From positions 62,001 to 126,000 of the forward strand of contig NZ_AQGQ01000001.1 in assembly GCF_000388115.1 (NCBI RefSeq): DNA of 64,000 nucleotides, given 5' to 3'. Below the pieces are notes generated by a model. That model was not told where the DNA came from. It saw only the letters and a program-made list of their open reading frames with translations, and ran no database searches. The DNA is from Aeromonas molluscorum 848. GTDB lineage: Bacteria; Pseudomonadota; Gammaproteobacteria; Enterobacterales; Aeromonadaceae. Below, in pieces: positions 598 to 31,819 of this stretch; the stretch's first letter is position 1, and every line of letters starts with the position of its first letter. The position numbers and the translations under genes are program-made.

Positions 598-863
598 GGG
601 GGCGACATGCGTCGCCCCCGATAGTCTTATCGTTCATATCCGTGAACGAAGTTGCTCCCTGCAATCCCTGACTATACCTCTTCCTTTAGGTTTCCCCTTC
701 CCAATCCTTTGGGGTGTCCTTTAGCCATCATGGCCTGACGAGTCATCCATTCCCGTCGCACTTTCTCCATCCTGGGAGGTGTCCTTTACCACATCCTGTG
801 GTGAGTCCATTTGCCCAACCCTGGCAGCCAATCTTCCTGATTGACTTCGACTGCGTCCGTGCA
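598..863 (-). ncRNA. csrB: CsrB-family CsrA-sequestering small RNA
   Basis: Read on the minus strand, this stretch carries about 16 GGA motifs in some 266 nt. Several lie in apical loops: CCAC-AGGAT-GTGG, CTCC-CAGGAT-GGAG, CCCAA-AGGA-TTGGG and GTTCA-CGGATA-TGAAC. This is the layout of CsrB RNAs, which titrate the translational regulator CsrA. The segment AAAGGACACCTCCCAGGATG closely matches a stretch I recall from E. coli CsrB, and GCAGGGAGCAAC near the 3' end matches as well. The RNA ends in a 9-bp GC hairpin (598-619) followed by ATCTTTAT. The 5' end is inferred from the promoter at 870-897. No protein frame here looks real. It is shorter than E. coli CsrB (about 369 nt). BarA/UvrY control would be expected, but I found no clear UvrY box. 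Confidence 0.88.
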
Positions 864-869
864 GGAGTA

Positions 870-897
870 ACTATAAGGATTTTCGACTGGCTAACAA
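870..897 (-). promoter_or_regulatory. sigma70 promoter for the CsrB RNA
   Basis: On the minus strand, TTGTTA (897-892) and TATAGT (875-870) are separated by 16 bp. A start about 7 nt downstream of the -10 element (near 863) gives an RNA that begins just before the first GGA motif. The upstream DNA to about 1000 is AT-rich. Confidence 0.55.
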
Positions 898-1418
898 CGC
901 GATCTTGAAAAACGTTTTACCCCCTTGCTTTTCTATTAAGTCAACTCTAGTTAATTGTTGTTTTAAATCAATTGCATATCGTTTTTTATTGCGGTTTATA
1001 AGATGTGTCAATCCGACTATGCCTGTCTGGTTTTTGGCTTATCGCTCACACCTTCAATGGCGAATATCTCACAAGAAGCTCAAACCAGTCTCAGTCGAAC
1101 TCATCCGAATGGATTAAGCCGCAGGCTCCGCGTCTGTTGGCACTGATCATGGCGGCGAGGGCCCCCGATGCAGCCCTGAATGTGGGGGAGAGGCTTGTCT
1201 CCCGGACACGAACTCAGCACTGTCAGGGCGGGGAGCTAGGCCAGCCCCAGACATTGCCTGCAAAAGTGGAGAAGCTGGCCAGCGCAGTCCCTTCTGTTAT
1301 CTGCCGCCATAGTGACAAGAGGAGAGGGGTTACAGACGGGAGGATGGTGACTGCCGGTCGGCAGGGCGAGCAAGCGTCAGTGAAGCGGGCATGGCTATAG
1401 GGAGATGGGGTAAAGAAG
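898..1418. other. intergenic, no gene recognised
   Basis: The CsrB promoter upstream region (AT-rich to about 1010) grades into GC-rich DNA with no frame that has a ribosome binding site or a recognisable protein. The longer open frames are on both strands, overlap each other, and have no family features. No repeat was seen. Confidence 0.5.
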
Positions 1419-1451: not shown

Positions 1452-1628
1452 TTAGTAGTGTTGCGTGCCGCCGCGCCAGATGCAGACGTATTCGGGTACC
1501 AGCATTTGCGGCATGTTGTCCACATGGCATACCACCATAGGTATGGCGGGGGCACCGTCTGCCTGAGCCAGGGTTGGCGTCATGGGCAGAACCAGTGCAG
1601 CAAGCAGAAGCAGGGGTTTGATGTTCAT
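1452..1628 (-). CDS. small secreted protein, 58 residues, unknown function
   Basis: This short gene starts with ATG preceded by AAGGAG at good spacing. It has a textbook Sec signal peptide: MNIK, then a Leu/Ala-rich core, then TLAQA with likely cleavage after residue 23. The mature part is about 35 residues with two cysteines (C34 and C49) that could form one disulfide in the periplasm, and it ends in GGTQHY. A hairpin terminator follows the stop directly and a CRP-type site lies about 60 bp upstream of the start, so this is a complete single-gene unit. I do not recognise the family. The signal peptide, ribosome binding site and terminator together make a chance frame unlikely. Confidence 0.75.
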   Translation of the reverse strand: MNIKPLLLLAALVLPMTPTLAQADGAPAIPMVVCHVDNMPQMLVPEYVCIWRGGTQHY

Positions 1629-2403: not shown

Positions 2404-3624
2404 ATGAGCAAATTTTATGTAGGTTCTGAAGTTGGCCAACTGCGTCGTGTCATGTTGCATCGCCCCAATCTCAGTCTCAAACGTCTGACACCTTCCAACT
2501 GTCAGGACCTGCTGTTCGATGATGTCCTCTCTGTCGAGCGGGCTGGTGAAGAGCATGACAAGTTCGCCCAAGTACTGCGCGATCAGAATGTCGAAGTCTT
2601 CCTGCTGACCAATCTGTTGGCCGAAACCCTGGATGTGCCGGAAGCCAAAGCCTGGCTGCTGCAACATCAGGTCTCCGATTATCGCCTCGGCTCAGCACTT
2701 GCCAATGATGTCCGCTGCTTCTTGTCGGATATGCCACATCGCGAACTGGCGCGGATCCTCTCCGGCGGTCTCACCTATTCCGAGATGCCGTTTAATGGCG
2801 TCAACATGGTAGTCGGCATGCACGCCCCGACCGATTTCATCATAGAGCCGCTGCCCAACCATCTCTTTACCCGTGACACCTCCTGCTGGGTCTACGGTGG
2901 CGTCTCCATCAACCCCATGGCCAAGGCTGCCCGTCGCCGGGAAACCAACCATGTGAAGGCCATTTACCGCTGGCATCCGCAGTTCGCCGGTCAGGATTTC
3001 ATCAAGTACTTCGGTGATGAGGATCATGACTATGACAACTCCACCATCGAAGGCGGTGACGTCCTGGTCATCGGTCGCGGCGCCGTGCTGATTGGCATGT
3101 CCGAGCGCACCACGCCACAAGGGGTCGAGCATCTGGCCCGCAGCCTGTTCAAGCACGGTCAGGCCAAGCAAGTCATCGCCATGCAACTGCCGAAACACCG
3201 TAGCTGCATGCACCTCGACACCGTCATGACCCACATGGACATAGACACCTTCTCCGTCTACCCGGAAGTCATTCGCAAAGATGTGAACTGCTGGAGTCTG
3301 ACCCCGGATGGCAATACCGGCATGAAGATCAAGGAGGAGGGTTATTTCGTGACGGCCATCGAGAAAGCATTGGGTGTGGATCAGCTCAAGCTCATCACCA
3401 CCGGTGGCGACAGCTTCGAGGCCGAGCGCGAGCAGTGGAACGATGCCAACAACGTACTGACCGTGCGCCCTGGTGTGGTCGTCGGCTACGAGCGCAATAC
3501 CTACACCAACGAAAAATACGACAAGGCCGGCATCACTGTGCTGTCCATCCCGGGCGAAGAGCTGGGACGTGGCCGCGGTGGCGCCCGCTGCATGAGCTGC
3601 CCGATGGAACGTGACGGCATCTAA
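2404..3624 (+). CDS. arcA: arginine deiminase
   Basis: Hydrolyses L-arginine to citrulline and ammonia, the first step of the arginine deiminase pathway in the cytoplasm. The length of 406 residues is normal. The catalytic set of the guanidino-modifying fold is visible: D158 in FTRDTS, E216 in IEGGD, H270 and D272 in MHLDTV, and the nucleophile C399 in RCMSCP near the C-terminus. The spacing matches the Pseudomonas enzyme. The ATG is preceded by a weak GACGGAA, so translation may depend on upstream context. It is the first gene of arcA-arcC-argF-arcD, which yields ATP from arginine under oxygen limitation and can protect against acid. Confidence 0.97.
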
Positions 3625-3686: not shown

Positions 3687-4613
3687 ATGAAAAAACCAAC
3701 TGTCGTCGTCGCCCTGGGGGGGAATGCCCTGCTCCGTCGTGGTGAGCCCCTTGAAGCGGATATCCAGCGCAAGAATATTGCCACCGCCGCCAAGACCATC
3801 GCCCAGATAGCCCAGGAATACAATGTGGTGCTGGTGCATGGCAACGGCCCACAAGTGGGTCTGCTCGCCCTGCAAAACAGCGCCTATACCAAGGTCGCTC
3901 CCTATCCCCTGGATGTGCTGGGTGCAGAATCTCAGGGCATGATCGGCTACATGCTGATCCAGGAGTTGAAGAATCTGATGCCGAGCCGCAACGTCACCGC
4001 GCTGCTGACTCAGGTGCAGGTCGATGCCAAGGATCCGGCCTTTGCCAATCCGACCAAATATATCGGCCCCGTCTACTCCGAAGCCGAGGCCCGCGCCCTG
4101 GCCGCCGAGAAGCAGTGGAGCGTCAAGGCAGACGGCAAGTTCTTCCGCCGCGTGGTGCCCTCTCCGCTGCCCCAGCGCATCGTTGAAGGCGATGCCATCG
4201 AGACCCTGATCGCTCAGGGGCACCTCATCATCTGTACCGGTGGTGGTGGCATTCCCGTGACTTGGGATGGCGAGCGTCTGACCGGGGTGGAAGCCGTCAT
4301 CGACAAGGACATGTCTGCCGCCTATCTGGCCAAGCAGATCAAGGCCGATGCCCTGCTGATCCTCACCGATGCCGATGCCGTCTACCTGGATTGGGGCAAA
4401 CCGACCCAACATCCGCTGCGCACCACCAGTCCTGATGATCTGGCTGGTATCCCATTCGATGCAGGTTCCATGGGGCCAAAGATAGAAGCTTCCTGCGAAT
4501 TTGTAAGAGCGACCCAGGGTCGCGTCGGTATAGGTTGCCTGGAAGATGGTCTGGCCATCCTCAAGGGTGAGGCCGGTACCAGCATAGTGGCCAATCTGGC
4601 CATCCCAGCCTAG
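3687..4613 (+). CDS. arcC: carbamate kinase
   Basis: Transfers phosphate from carbamoyl phosphate to ADP, giving ATP, ammonia and CO2; this is the energy-yielding last step of the arginine deiminase pathway. The 308 residues are the usual length. The amino acid kinase fold shows in [11 protein letters not shown] at the N-terminus, GNGPQVG in the first third, and CTGGGGIP and LTDADAVY in the nucleotide and carbamate regions. It lies 62 bp after arcA and 50 bp before argF. In Pseudomonas arcC is last, whereas here it is second, so gene order differs while function is clear. Confidence 0.96.
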
Positions 4614-4663
4614 TCAACTTCACTGCCTACTATTGGTCTGAACAAAATAAGAGAGAACTCATC

Positions 4664-5668
4664 ATGGCTTTCAATCTGCGTAATCGTAACTTCCTGAAAC
4701 TGCTGGACTTCACCCCGCGCGAAATCCAATACATGATCGACTTGGCCATCGACCTGAAAAAAGCCAAATATGGTGGCTACGAGCGTAAGCATCTGGGCGG
4801 AAAGAATATCGCGCTGATCTTCGAGAAAACCTCCACCCGTACCCGTTGCGCCTTTGAAGTGGCAGCTTTCGACCAGGGCGCGCAAGTCTCCTACCTTGGG
4901 CCAAGTGGTTCCCAGATTGGTCACAAGGAGTCCATGAAGGACACCGCTCGCGTGCTGGGCCGCATGTATGACGGTATCGAATACCGTGGTTACGGCCAGG
5001 AGATCGTGGAAGAGCTGGGTGCCCATGCCGGTGTCCCTGTCTGGAACGGTCTGACCAATGAGTTCCACCCGACCCAGATCCTGGCCGACTTCATGACCAT
5101 GCTGGAACACGGCAAGGGCAAGCGTCTGGATCAAATCAAGTTCGCCTACCTGGGTGATGCTCGCAACAACATGGGCAACTCTCTGATGGTTGGCGCCGCC
5201 AAGATGGGCATGGATATCCGCCTGGTCGCTCCGAAAGCCTTCTGGCCGGAAGAGGATCTGGTCGCCAAGTGCCGCCTGATTGCCGAAGAGACCGGCGCCC
5301 GCATCACCATGACCGAAGATGTGAAAGAGGGCGTGCTGGGCACCGACTTCCTCTACACCGATGTCTGGGTCTCCATGGGTGAGGCGAAGGAAGCCTGGGA
5401 TCAACGGGTGAAACTGATGACGCCTTATCAGATCAACATGGATGTCATCAATGCCACCAAGAACCCGGATGTGAAGTTCATGCACTGCCTGCCGGCGTTC
5501 CACAACGATGAGACCACCATGGGCAAGGAAGTGGCTGACAAGTACGGAATGAAAGGTCTGGAAGTGACCGAGGACGTGTTCGAATCCGAGCACAGCATCG
5601 TGTTCGACGAGGCCGAAAACCGGATGCACACCATCAAGGCAGTGATGGTTGCTACGCTGGGCGACTAA
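4664..5668 (+). CDS. argF: ornithine carbamoyltransferase, catabolic context
   Basis: Interconverts citrulline plus phosphate and ornithine plus carbamoyl phosphate. Position in the arc operon suggests the catabolic direction (ArcB role). The 334 residues carry the carbamoyl phosphate motif STRTR at 57-61, HPTQ at 135-138, and the ornithine-side HCLP at 274-277. Sequence alone does not separate anabolic from catabolic forms, so it could be named arcB; no second copy is in the window. A strong terminator follows, so arcD may be transcribed partly by readthrough or from its own promoter in the 120-bp gap. Confidence 0.95.
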
Positions 5669-30007: not shown

Positions 30008-31819
30008 ATGTTAGAGAATTTACGCAATATTGCGATTATTGCGCACGTAGACCACGGCAAAACTACCCTGGTTGATAAGCTGCTGCAGCAGTCTGGAACC
30101 CTCGACCGTACCACTGATGGTCAAGAGCGTCTGATGGATTCCAACGATCTGGAAAAAGAACGTGGTATTACCATTCTCGCCAAGAACACTGCAATCCGTT
30201 GGAAAGACTACCGCATCAACATCGTTGATACTCCGGGTCACGCCGACTTCGGTGGTGAAGTAGAGCGTGTCATGTCCATGGTTGACTCCGTGTTGCTGCT
30301 GGTGGATGCCGTTGACGGCCCTATGCCGCAAACCCGTTTCGTCACCCAAAAAGCATTCGCCCAGGGTCTAAAGCCGATCGTCGTCATCAACAAGATTGAC
30401 CGTCCGGGTGCTCGTCCTGACTGGGTAATGGATCAGGTCTTCGATCTGTTCGACAACCTGGGTGCCACCGATGAGCAGCTGGACTTCAAAGTTGTCTACG
30501 CCTCTGCACTGAACGGTTGGGCCACCATGGACCAAAACGTTGAGTCCGACAACATGGAACCCCTGTTCCAGGCCATCGTTGACAACGTAGAGCAGCCGAA
30601 GGGTGACCCTGCCGGTGCCTTCCAGATGCAGATCTCCCAGCTGGACTACAACTCCTACGTGGGTGTCATCGGTATCGGCCGTATCAGCCGTGGTCGCGTC
30701 AAAACCAACCAGCAAGTCACCGTCGTTGGTGCCAACGGCAAGACCCGTACCGGCAAAGTCGGTCAGGTACTTGGCTACCTGGGTCTGTCCCGTACCGAAG
30801 TTGTTGACGCGCAAGCGGGCGACATCATTGCCATCACCGGTCTGGGCGAGCTGAAAATCTCCGACACCATCTGTGACAACAATGCTGTTGAAGCCCTGCC
30901 GGCACTCTCCGTCGACGAGCCGACCGTGAACATGACCTTCCAGGTCAACACCTCACCGTTCGCCGGTAAAGAAGGCAAGTTCGTGACCTCCCGCAACATC
31001 ATGGAGCGTCTGAACCAGGAGCTGGTCCACAACGTGGCCCTGCGCGTGGAAGAGACCGAAGATCCGGACAAGTTCCGCGTTTCCGGCCGTGGTGAACTGC
31101 ACCTTTCCATCCTGATCGAAAACATGCGTCGCGAAGGCTACGAGCTGGCGGTATCCCGTCCGGAAGTTATCCTGCGCACCGTGGATGGCGTGTTGCACGA
31201 GCCGTTTGAAACTGTGACTGTCGACGTGGAAGAAGCCCACCAGGGTTCTGTCATGGAGCAGCTCGGCCTGCGTAAAGGCGAGATGACCAACATGACTCCG
31301 GATGGCAAGGGTCGTGTCCGTCTTGACTTCATGATCCCGAGCCGTGGCCTGATCGGTTTCCAGACCGAGTTCCTGACCATGACTTCCGGTACCGGTCTGC
31401 TGTACCACACCTTCGACCATTACGGTCCGCACAAGGGTGGCAGCATCGGCGAGCGTCAGAATGGCGTGCTGATCTCCAACGCAACCGGCAAGGCCCTGAC
31501 CTTCGCCCTGTTTGGTCTGCAAGACCGCGGTCGTCTGTTTATCGGTCACGCTACCGAAGTGTACGAAGGCCAGGTGATCGGTATTCACTCCCGTTCCAAC
31601 GATCTGACAGTGAACTGCCTGAAGGGCAAGCAGCTGACCAACATGCGTGCCTCCGGTACCGATGAAGCTCAAGTGCTGACTCCGCCGATCCGCATGACCC
31701 TGGAACAGGCCCTCGAATTCATCGACAACGATGAATTGGTCGAGATCACTCCCAAGGCAATACGTGTTCGTAAGAAACTGTTGACCGAGATGGATCGCAA
31801 GCGCTCCGGTCGCGCCTGA
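30008..31819 (+). CDS. typA: ribosome-associated GTPase BipA/TypA
   Basis: A translational GTPase that binds ribosomes and supports 50S assembly, cold growth and virulence traits. The 603 residues have the EF-G-like order: G domain with [21 protein letters not shown] and [12 protein letters not shown], a domain II beta-barrel, domains III and V, and the unique C-terminal domain ending in KRSGRA. The start MLENLRN with GAGGCGAGA upstream aligns with E. coli MIEKLRN. It is divergent from glnA, as in E. coli. Confidence 0.98.

Follow-up and report, generated by a model that had tools for sequence, protein, structure and literature searches.

In Escherichia coli, the regulator UvrY binds an 18-nucleotide repeat far upstream of csrB (TGTGAGAGATCTCTTACA, centered at positions -183/-182), and the passages on UvrY binding in the same paper also give the UvrY-bound csrC repeats of E. 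coli (TGTGAGACATTGCCGATA) and Salmonella (TGTGAGACATTGACCATT) and state that optimal UvrY binding at csrB requires IHF (PMC4682653). CsrB and CsrC have been reported in Aeromonas as well. In passages of a review, both RNAs of A. veronii are described as elevated >50-fold in the leech crop relative to rich medium at stationary phase (PMC5061737), the ncRNA passages of an A. salmonicida genome paper include CsrB and CsrC (PMC8780938), and a study on A. dhakensis, in the part bearing on this point, finds UvrY to matter for virulence and raises a csrB/csrC/CsrA step as no more than a possibility (PMC7250320). The RNA described here is thus of an already known kind, and a CsrB-type gene in the gap discussed below is nothing unusual for an Aeromonas genome; what goes slightly beyond routine is the near-fixed geometry of its switch and, at the csrC position, a third sibling that escapes recognition by Rfam at its cutoffs in the loci scanned.

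The locus is part of a 64,000-nucleotide stretch of the Aeromonas molluscorum 848 genome, the whole of which is referred to as the window. The initial annotation had placed a CsrB-type RNA on the minus strand of a 950-bp gap after a receptor gene. The gap does have that size, since the frame of a chemoreceptor, which carries an MCP signalling domain, stops at position 501 and the next plausible gene spans 1452 to 1628. A search with the Rfam CsrB/RsmB covariance model (RF00018), the test that had been named for this RNA, returned a full-length match (model positions 1 to 356) on the predicted strand, at 588 to 884, scoring 91.8 bits against a gathering cutoff of 71. The same match was recovered in a repeat scan of positions 480 to 1460, in which, at E values up to 1 and among the matches listed, CsrB was found along with nothing but three overlapping, lower-scoring clan matches; in the whole window, one other Rfam match, a tRNA, exceeded its cutoff. 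Taking the covariance match, conservation, covariation, GGA-loop enrichment, upstream box and partner genes jointly, we conclude with high confidence that the minus strand from ~863 to ~590 encodes a CsrB/RsmB-family sRNA of ~270 nucleotides, which would be switched by UvrY and capture CsrA. The 5' end of this predicted transcript (gene coordinates 590 to 863) was deduced from the -10 box, and its 3' end is placed at ~590. Its own genome contains two clear CsrB genes, of which this is one, and probably three genes for CsrA sponges in all. As for the suggestion that the gap is unannotated, this applies to protein-based annotation, which skips the CsrB gene, but not in general, as annotation that includes an Rfam search would detect the gene.

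On one side, the RNA gene is flanked by the chemoreceptor gene and on the other by a 58-amino-acid frame (1452 to 1628, minus strand) and arcA. The 58-amino-acid frame has a signal-peptide-like start and is 51 to 97% identical among relatives; in 32 of 37 Aeromonas genomes (including the one studied here), it is located upstream of the CsrB gene; no match to it was found in Pfam or NCBIfam.

The abundance of GGA motifs on the minus strand between 598 and 870, originally put at about 16, came to 17 by our count, versus a mean of 11.6 in dinucleotide shuffles, 10 out of 1,000 of which reached 17. When windows of 273 nucleotides were slid over both strands in steps of 50, only 3 out of 2,550 held at least 14 GGAs, and all three overlapped the CsrB gene. 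Where at least four GGA-in-loop hairpins had been claimed, we found eight that do not overlap, compared to 1.55 on average and never more than 5 in shuffles (0/300 reached 8), and the plus strand of the same region yielded a single one. In addition, the folding energy of the RNA is 3.3 standard deviations below that of dinucleotide shuffles.

Conservation was assessed in 37 Aeromonas genomes, all of which contain an RF00018 match above the cutoff and all of which contain the window-type locus. The best-scoring relative, G024, is 90% identical over 433 nucleotides, and the pattern AAAGGACACCTCCCAGGATGGAGAA was found on five named contigs, all of them from Aeromonas. In the 37-row alignment, the mean column identity of the RNA is 95%, 16 of the 17 GGAs never vary and the other is kept in 31 rows. 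A structure of nine local hairpins pairs in 99.7% of the 1,785 alignment cells, a figure that drops to 29 to 45% when, as a control, the pairing partners are slid. Changes on both sides were seen in 6 out of 51 pairs (shuffled mean, 1.6; 0/500 shuffles reached 6), with the proviso that such shuffle counts are not probabilities when sequences are related. RNAalifold returned most of the same hairpins, set in a larger fold; the global fold partly differs from the string of local hairpins.

Starting from the 5' end, the hairpins (all on the minus strand) comprise, first, an 8-bp stem with an AGGAA loop (826 to 846), for which two pairs changed on both sides among 35 distinct sequences and 99.3% of cells are paired. 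This is followed by ACCAC-AGGAT-GTGGT (788 to 802), in which two pairs changed on both sides and every cell (100%) is paired, and by CTCC-CAGGAT-GGAG (765 to 778), which falls within a block common to E. coli CsrB and, because it never varies, is neutral with respect to covariation. Further downstream, a hairpin exposing TGGAT in a 9-nucleotide loop (737 to 757) has one pair changed on both sides and 100% of cells paired, and a hairpin at 723 to 735 carries an ATGAT loop, without GGA. Finally, CCCAA-AGGA-TTGGG (700 to 713), ACCT-AAAGGAAG-AGGT (676 to 691) and CGTTCA-CGGATA-TGAACG (631 to 648) featured in both the covariation and the GGA-loop analyses.

Could the gap simply be a purine-rich stretch that arose by chance, or hold a small protein gene instead? 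Short frames are indeed present on both strands, as in any sequence of like composition, and one antisense frame is free of stops in 1 of the 37 homologues. However, all three sense frames contain stops in 37/37 homologues, so that no protein gene is read from the RNA strand, and the covariance match, the covariation and the enrichment of GGA loops likewise argue for an RNA. We therefore consider the absence of an RNA gene so improbable as to be negligible.

The predicted promoter is TTGTTA-16-TATAGT. Its -10 element, TATAGT (870 to 875, minus strand), belongs to a block, TCCTTATAGTTA, that is exactly preserved in 34 of the 37 genomes, and of its -35 element, TTGTTA (892 to 897, minus strand), TTGT is found in most alignment rows, among the matches listed. 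A promoter scan by itself performs at chance level here (one found, 0.8 expected). At the other end, the GC hairpin that had been proposed was located at 598 to 619 (minus strand), with a 9-bp stem resembling that of an intrinsic terminator; the T-tract that follows is interrupted in this genome (ATCTTTATGG) and longer in most relatives, among the matches listed. Just upstream of the -35 element, the alignment revealed a conserved element, AAAACGTTTTTCA (906 to 918, minus strand), with columns that are mostly ≥90% identical over 34 rows; it is present in nearly all of these rows and absent from L075.

Alignment of the upstream DNA uncovered one further conserved sequence, ~200 bp upstream: a UvrY/GacA-box-like sequence, TGTGAGATATTCGCCATT (1056 to 1073, minus strand), the center of which lies ~201 nucleotides upstream of the predicted start. 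The corresponding pattern, TGTRAGANATYNNCCAT, has a single match in the window, versus 0.02 expected. Its spacing was measured in 34 of the 37 genomes (all but those of L073, L074 and L076), and in 33 of these the first base of the box is separated by 194 bp from the beginning of the -10 block (TCCTTATAGT), the other having 195 bp, a near-fixed arrangement although the intervening DNA varies. Between box and promoter, the window contains an IHF-like site, AATCAATTGCATA (966 to 978, plus strand), with one mismatch to the IHF consensus; sites with at most one mismatch were found in this interval in 22/34 genomes, compared to 9.4/34 from shuffles.

Across the 37 genomes, TGTRAGANATYNNCCAT has 87 matches, with 35 genomes having at least one, and the reversed pattern has none. 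All matches but one (86/87) are upstream of one of three csr-type loci, namely, the window-type gene (exact box in 25/37), a longer CsrB-type gene (34/35) and a third type (27/36), both of which are described below. For the window-type gene, an exact box is missing in 12 genomes, of which 11 show a relaxed form and one, G006, is outside the measured set. Since the pattern was drawn from these very loci, their recovery is partly circular; the near absence of other matches is not explained by the origin of the pattern. The sole match away from the three csr-type genes is located at G020:C55:161556-161572.

The strict consensus of the GacA palindrome is TGTAAG-N6-CTTACA. We rejected this strict form as the switch of the window-type gene, as the best upstream site has two to five mismatches in the 34 genomes and the sites with two mismatches overlap the promoter itself. 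Of the UvrY repeats given in the binding-site passages of PMC4682653, it is the csrC form that the window box appears to resemble most. This matters for an alternative in which the RNA is a true CsrA sponge that is controlled mainly by a factor other than UvrY, for example via the AAAACGTTTTTCA element at 906 to 918. That element is among the best-conserved upstream blocks, the strict palindrome is absent, and, according to passages of PMC6262261, csrB1 of Vibrio tasmaniensis is independent of VarS/VarA. Against this, the box keeps its distance from the -10 block and resembles the less symmetric, csrC-type UvrY sites found in the passages cited above (PMC4682653). Weighing both, we regard control mainly by another factor as unlikely and retain UvrY as the probable switch.

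Family membership, covarying GGA-loop hairpins, a conserved promoter and a box at conserved spacing are accompanied, in the same genome, by the presence of the partner genes. CsrA gives one match (PF02599; 89.6 bits), and a UvrY-family regulator scores 422.9 bits against a cutoff of 280, with 38 other matches to the same model staying below it. A BarA-type sCache_4 sensor domain and a CsrD-type GAPES4 domain are present as well, and we take these to represent BarA and CsrD, respectively. By analogy with the family, a BarA-type sensor would drive phosphorylation of UvrY (GacA/SirA type), which, once phosphorylated, would bind the box at 1056 to 1073, and DNA bending by IHF would probably help it to activate the promoter ~200 bp downstream. 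The locus would then be transcribed from the minus strand, and approximately eight GGA-loop hairpins would capture CsrA dimers, relieving CsrA control of its mRNA targets, until the RNA is turned over by CsrD/RNase E. CsrA sequestration by the window RNA would likewise be inherited from the family, and so would its influence on motility, biofilm and carbon storage.

The second CsrB gene of this genome (contig G000:C25; L004, ~4567 to 5045) is longer and scores 122.1 bits. The listed Rfam match covers only the 3' 291 nucleotides, and an extra RF00018 piece of 57.7 bits lies directly upstream; with a start predicted by eye from the sequence and the promoter position, this suggests a single RNA of ~480 nucleotides with an internal repeat, in which we count 39 GGAs and 16 hairpins that carry GGA in the loop. 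A partial match at 30629 to 30763 on C25 was discarded as a separate gene: being contiguous with the long copy, and given box-to-end distances of 601 to 717 nucleotides, it is read as the 5' half of the long RNA. Distances of this size, obtained for the 34 out of 35 long-type loci in which the box is exact, suggest that so long a copy is usual in the genus. The long type is found in 35 of the 37 genomes, with no match in G018 or in G030, which is 80% complete. In G009, G027 and G029 (L074, L075 and L076), the window-type and the long-type gene form a tandem pair on a single contig, and each has a box of its own; they are not adjacent in the other genomes that have both.

With a longer copy at hand, the window gene might be a decaying or silent one, kept by chance while the longer copy does the work. 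Its smaller size and lower score (91.8 versus 122.1 bits), the hairpin at 723 to 735 with no GGA in its loop and the broken T-tract could all be taken that way. A decaying copy would, however, hardly be expected to persist in 37/37 genomes at 95% mean column identity with 16/17 GGAs invariant, nor to maintain both its promoter and the spacing of its box, and we consider this very unlikely.

A third family came to light through weak RF00018 matches (22 to 27 bits) at another place in seven genomes. By DNA search, it was found in 36 of the 37 genomes, with only 33 matches exceeding 270 bases: the RNA is diverged in G009 and G027 (short matches), just the flank is matched in G006, and G029 has no match. 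In the A. molluscorum genome, it is located at ~2674 to 3002 on the minus strand of G000:C10 (L133); the other loci are L103 to L130, L132 and L134 to L137. The RNA has a promoter-like start (TTGAGC/T) and GGA hairpins, and its terminator hairpin comes with a T-run. It lies between the genes for YihA/YsxC and a two-domain cytochrome c and those for YihI, a DUF2489 protein and HemN; the relative orientation matches that of E. coli K-12 yihA - csrC - yihI - hemN. Its box in A. molluscorum has one mismatch to the pattern (TGTGCGAGATCCACCAT, identified by eye).

For covariation, 36 third-locus stretches were collected, of which 26 passed the start anchor and 25 were aligned after removal by hand of the diverged L137. 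The 10 stretches failing the anchor were eight ordinary copies (L119, L122, L123, L124, L127, L130, L132 and L134), the diverged L138 and L139, which is flank only. In the 25 rows, 13 out of 38 pairs changed on both sides, compared to a shuffled mean of 7.1 (0/500 shuffles reached 13), and 90.8% of cells pair, compared to 25 to 56% in slid controls. Two of the eight helices pair in just 71 to 77% of cells, and pair types are no more numerous than in shuffles, 205/500 of which reach the same number. GGA-loop hairpins number six in A. molluscorum (1.8 in shuffles, 2/300 of which reach six) and five (3/300), nine (0/300) and four (14/300) in three other genomes; the plain GGA count of the A. molluscorum copy is ordinary (80/300).

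No Rfam family reached its cutoff in the four third-RNA loci scanned. RF00018 scored 26.9, 24.4 and 16.2 bits in three of them, and the A. molluscorum locus gave no RF00018 match up to an E value of 1. Matches to BASRCI337, P26, HOTTIP_3 and ryfA at the third locus were dismissed, being far under their cutoffs. Nor could sequence kinship with E. coli CsrC be upheld, as the best blastn E value was 0.17 and the matches were short and repeat-like; the link to CsrC is supported by position and box only. We consider it likely that Aeromonas has three CsrA sponges under one UvrY-type box, the third being a diverged GGA-hairpin RNA at the csrC position. With the third RNA below every Rfam cutoff in the scanned loci, annotation based on Rfam would report just two. 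If our reading is correct, the csrC locus predates the enterobacteria, and its position and box were kept while its sequence drifted beyond recognition.

In 11 genomes (G001, G003, G006, G011, G013, G014, G016, G017, G028, G033 and G034), it is hemN, and not the chemoreceptor gene, that the window-type gene follows; in all of these except G006, which has lost the third RNA, the two RNA genes are ~3 kb apart. Separately, two other Aeromonadaceae (L101 in G061 and L102 in G119) have an extra, weak, CsrB-like GGA-rich RNA of 26 to 31 bits; in an all-against-all blastn search (E value of 1e-3), each matched its counterpart and not the third Aeromonas RNA.

Among the matches listed in our literature search, which covered titles and the openings of abstracts and left subscription papers mostly outside, a third Aeromonas copy at the csrC position was undescribed. 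One printed statement does mention a third copy under the name Aeromonas; since the species list and tree of that paper name Aliivibrio salmonicida, we read it as a slip. The name CsrB or CsrC, as used for A. veronii (PMC5061737) and A. salmonicida (PMC8780938), may already mean the third RNA, because the passages concerned give no loci. The present analysis pins down where a global regulator lies and on which strand, together with its promoter and its likely switch, and the loci given here make the csrB/csrC/CsrA step raised for A. dhakensis directly testable. Removing only the two copies visible to Rfam could leave a working third sponge, and the outcome could then be misread as redundancy or as direct action of UvrY.

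Among known systems, E. coli CsrB shares with the window RNA the full-length covariance match, the GGA hairpins, the terminator and a block of 36 nucleotides with 88.9% identity (E = 1e-8), in keeping with the initial annotation, which had noted segments close to that RNA. Furthermore, TGTGAGAGATCTCTTACA starts 191 nucleotides before the annotated E. coli RNA, and the window box is likewise ~200 nucleotides upstream. The two differ in size (~270 nucleotides and 17 GGAs in the window, versus 369 nucleotides and 22 GGAs), in the lower symmetry of the window box and in their neighbors, which are yqcC and syd in E. coli and the chemoreceptor gene, the 58-amino-acid frame and arcA in the window. 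The second copy in A. molluscorum is 74.8% identical over 210 nucleotides of the 3' part and has the same box type, but differs in its length of ~480 nucleotides, its 39 GGAs and 16 GGA-loop hairpins and its internal repeat. E. coli CsrC is, similarly, a CsrA sponge under UvrY, with repeats that, as printed in the passages of PMC4682653, the window box resembles; it sits between yihA and yihI, whereas the window RNA, for which the match listed by name is CsrB, is at another locus and the yihI-adjacent place is occupied by the separate third RNA. In Vibrio, the copies form synteny groups of their own, according to passages of PMC6262261, and are compared with those of Aeromonas by description only. 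They are alike in that V. cholerae CsrB, CsrC and CsrD are described, in the relevant passages of PMC6550530, as three sibling sponges under one response regulator.
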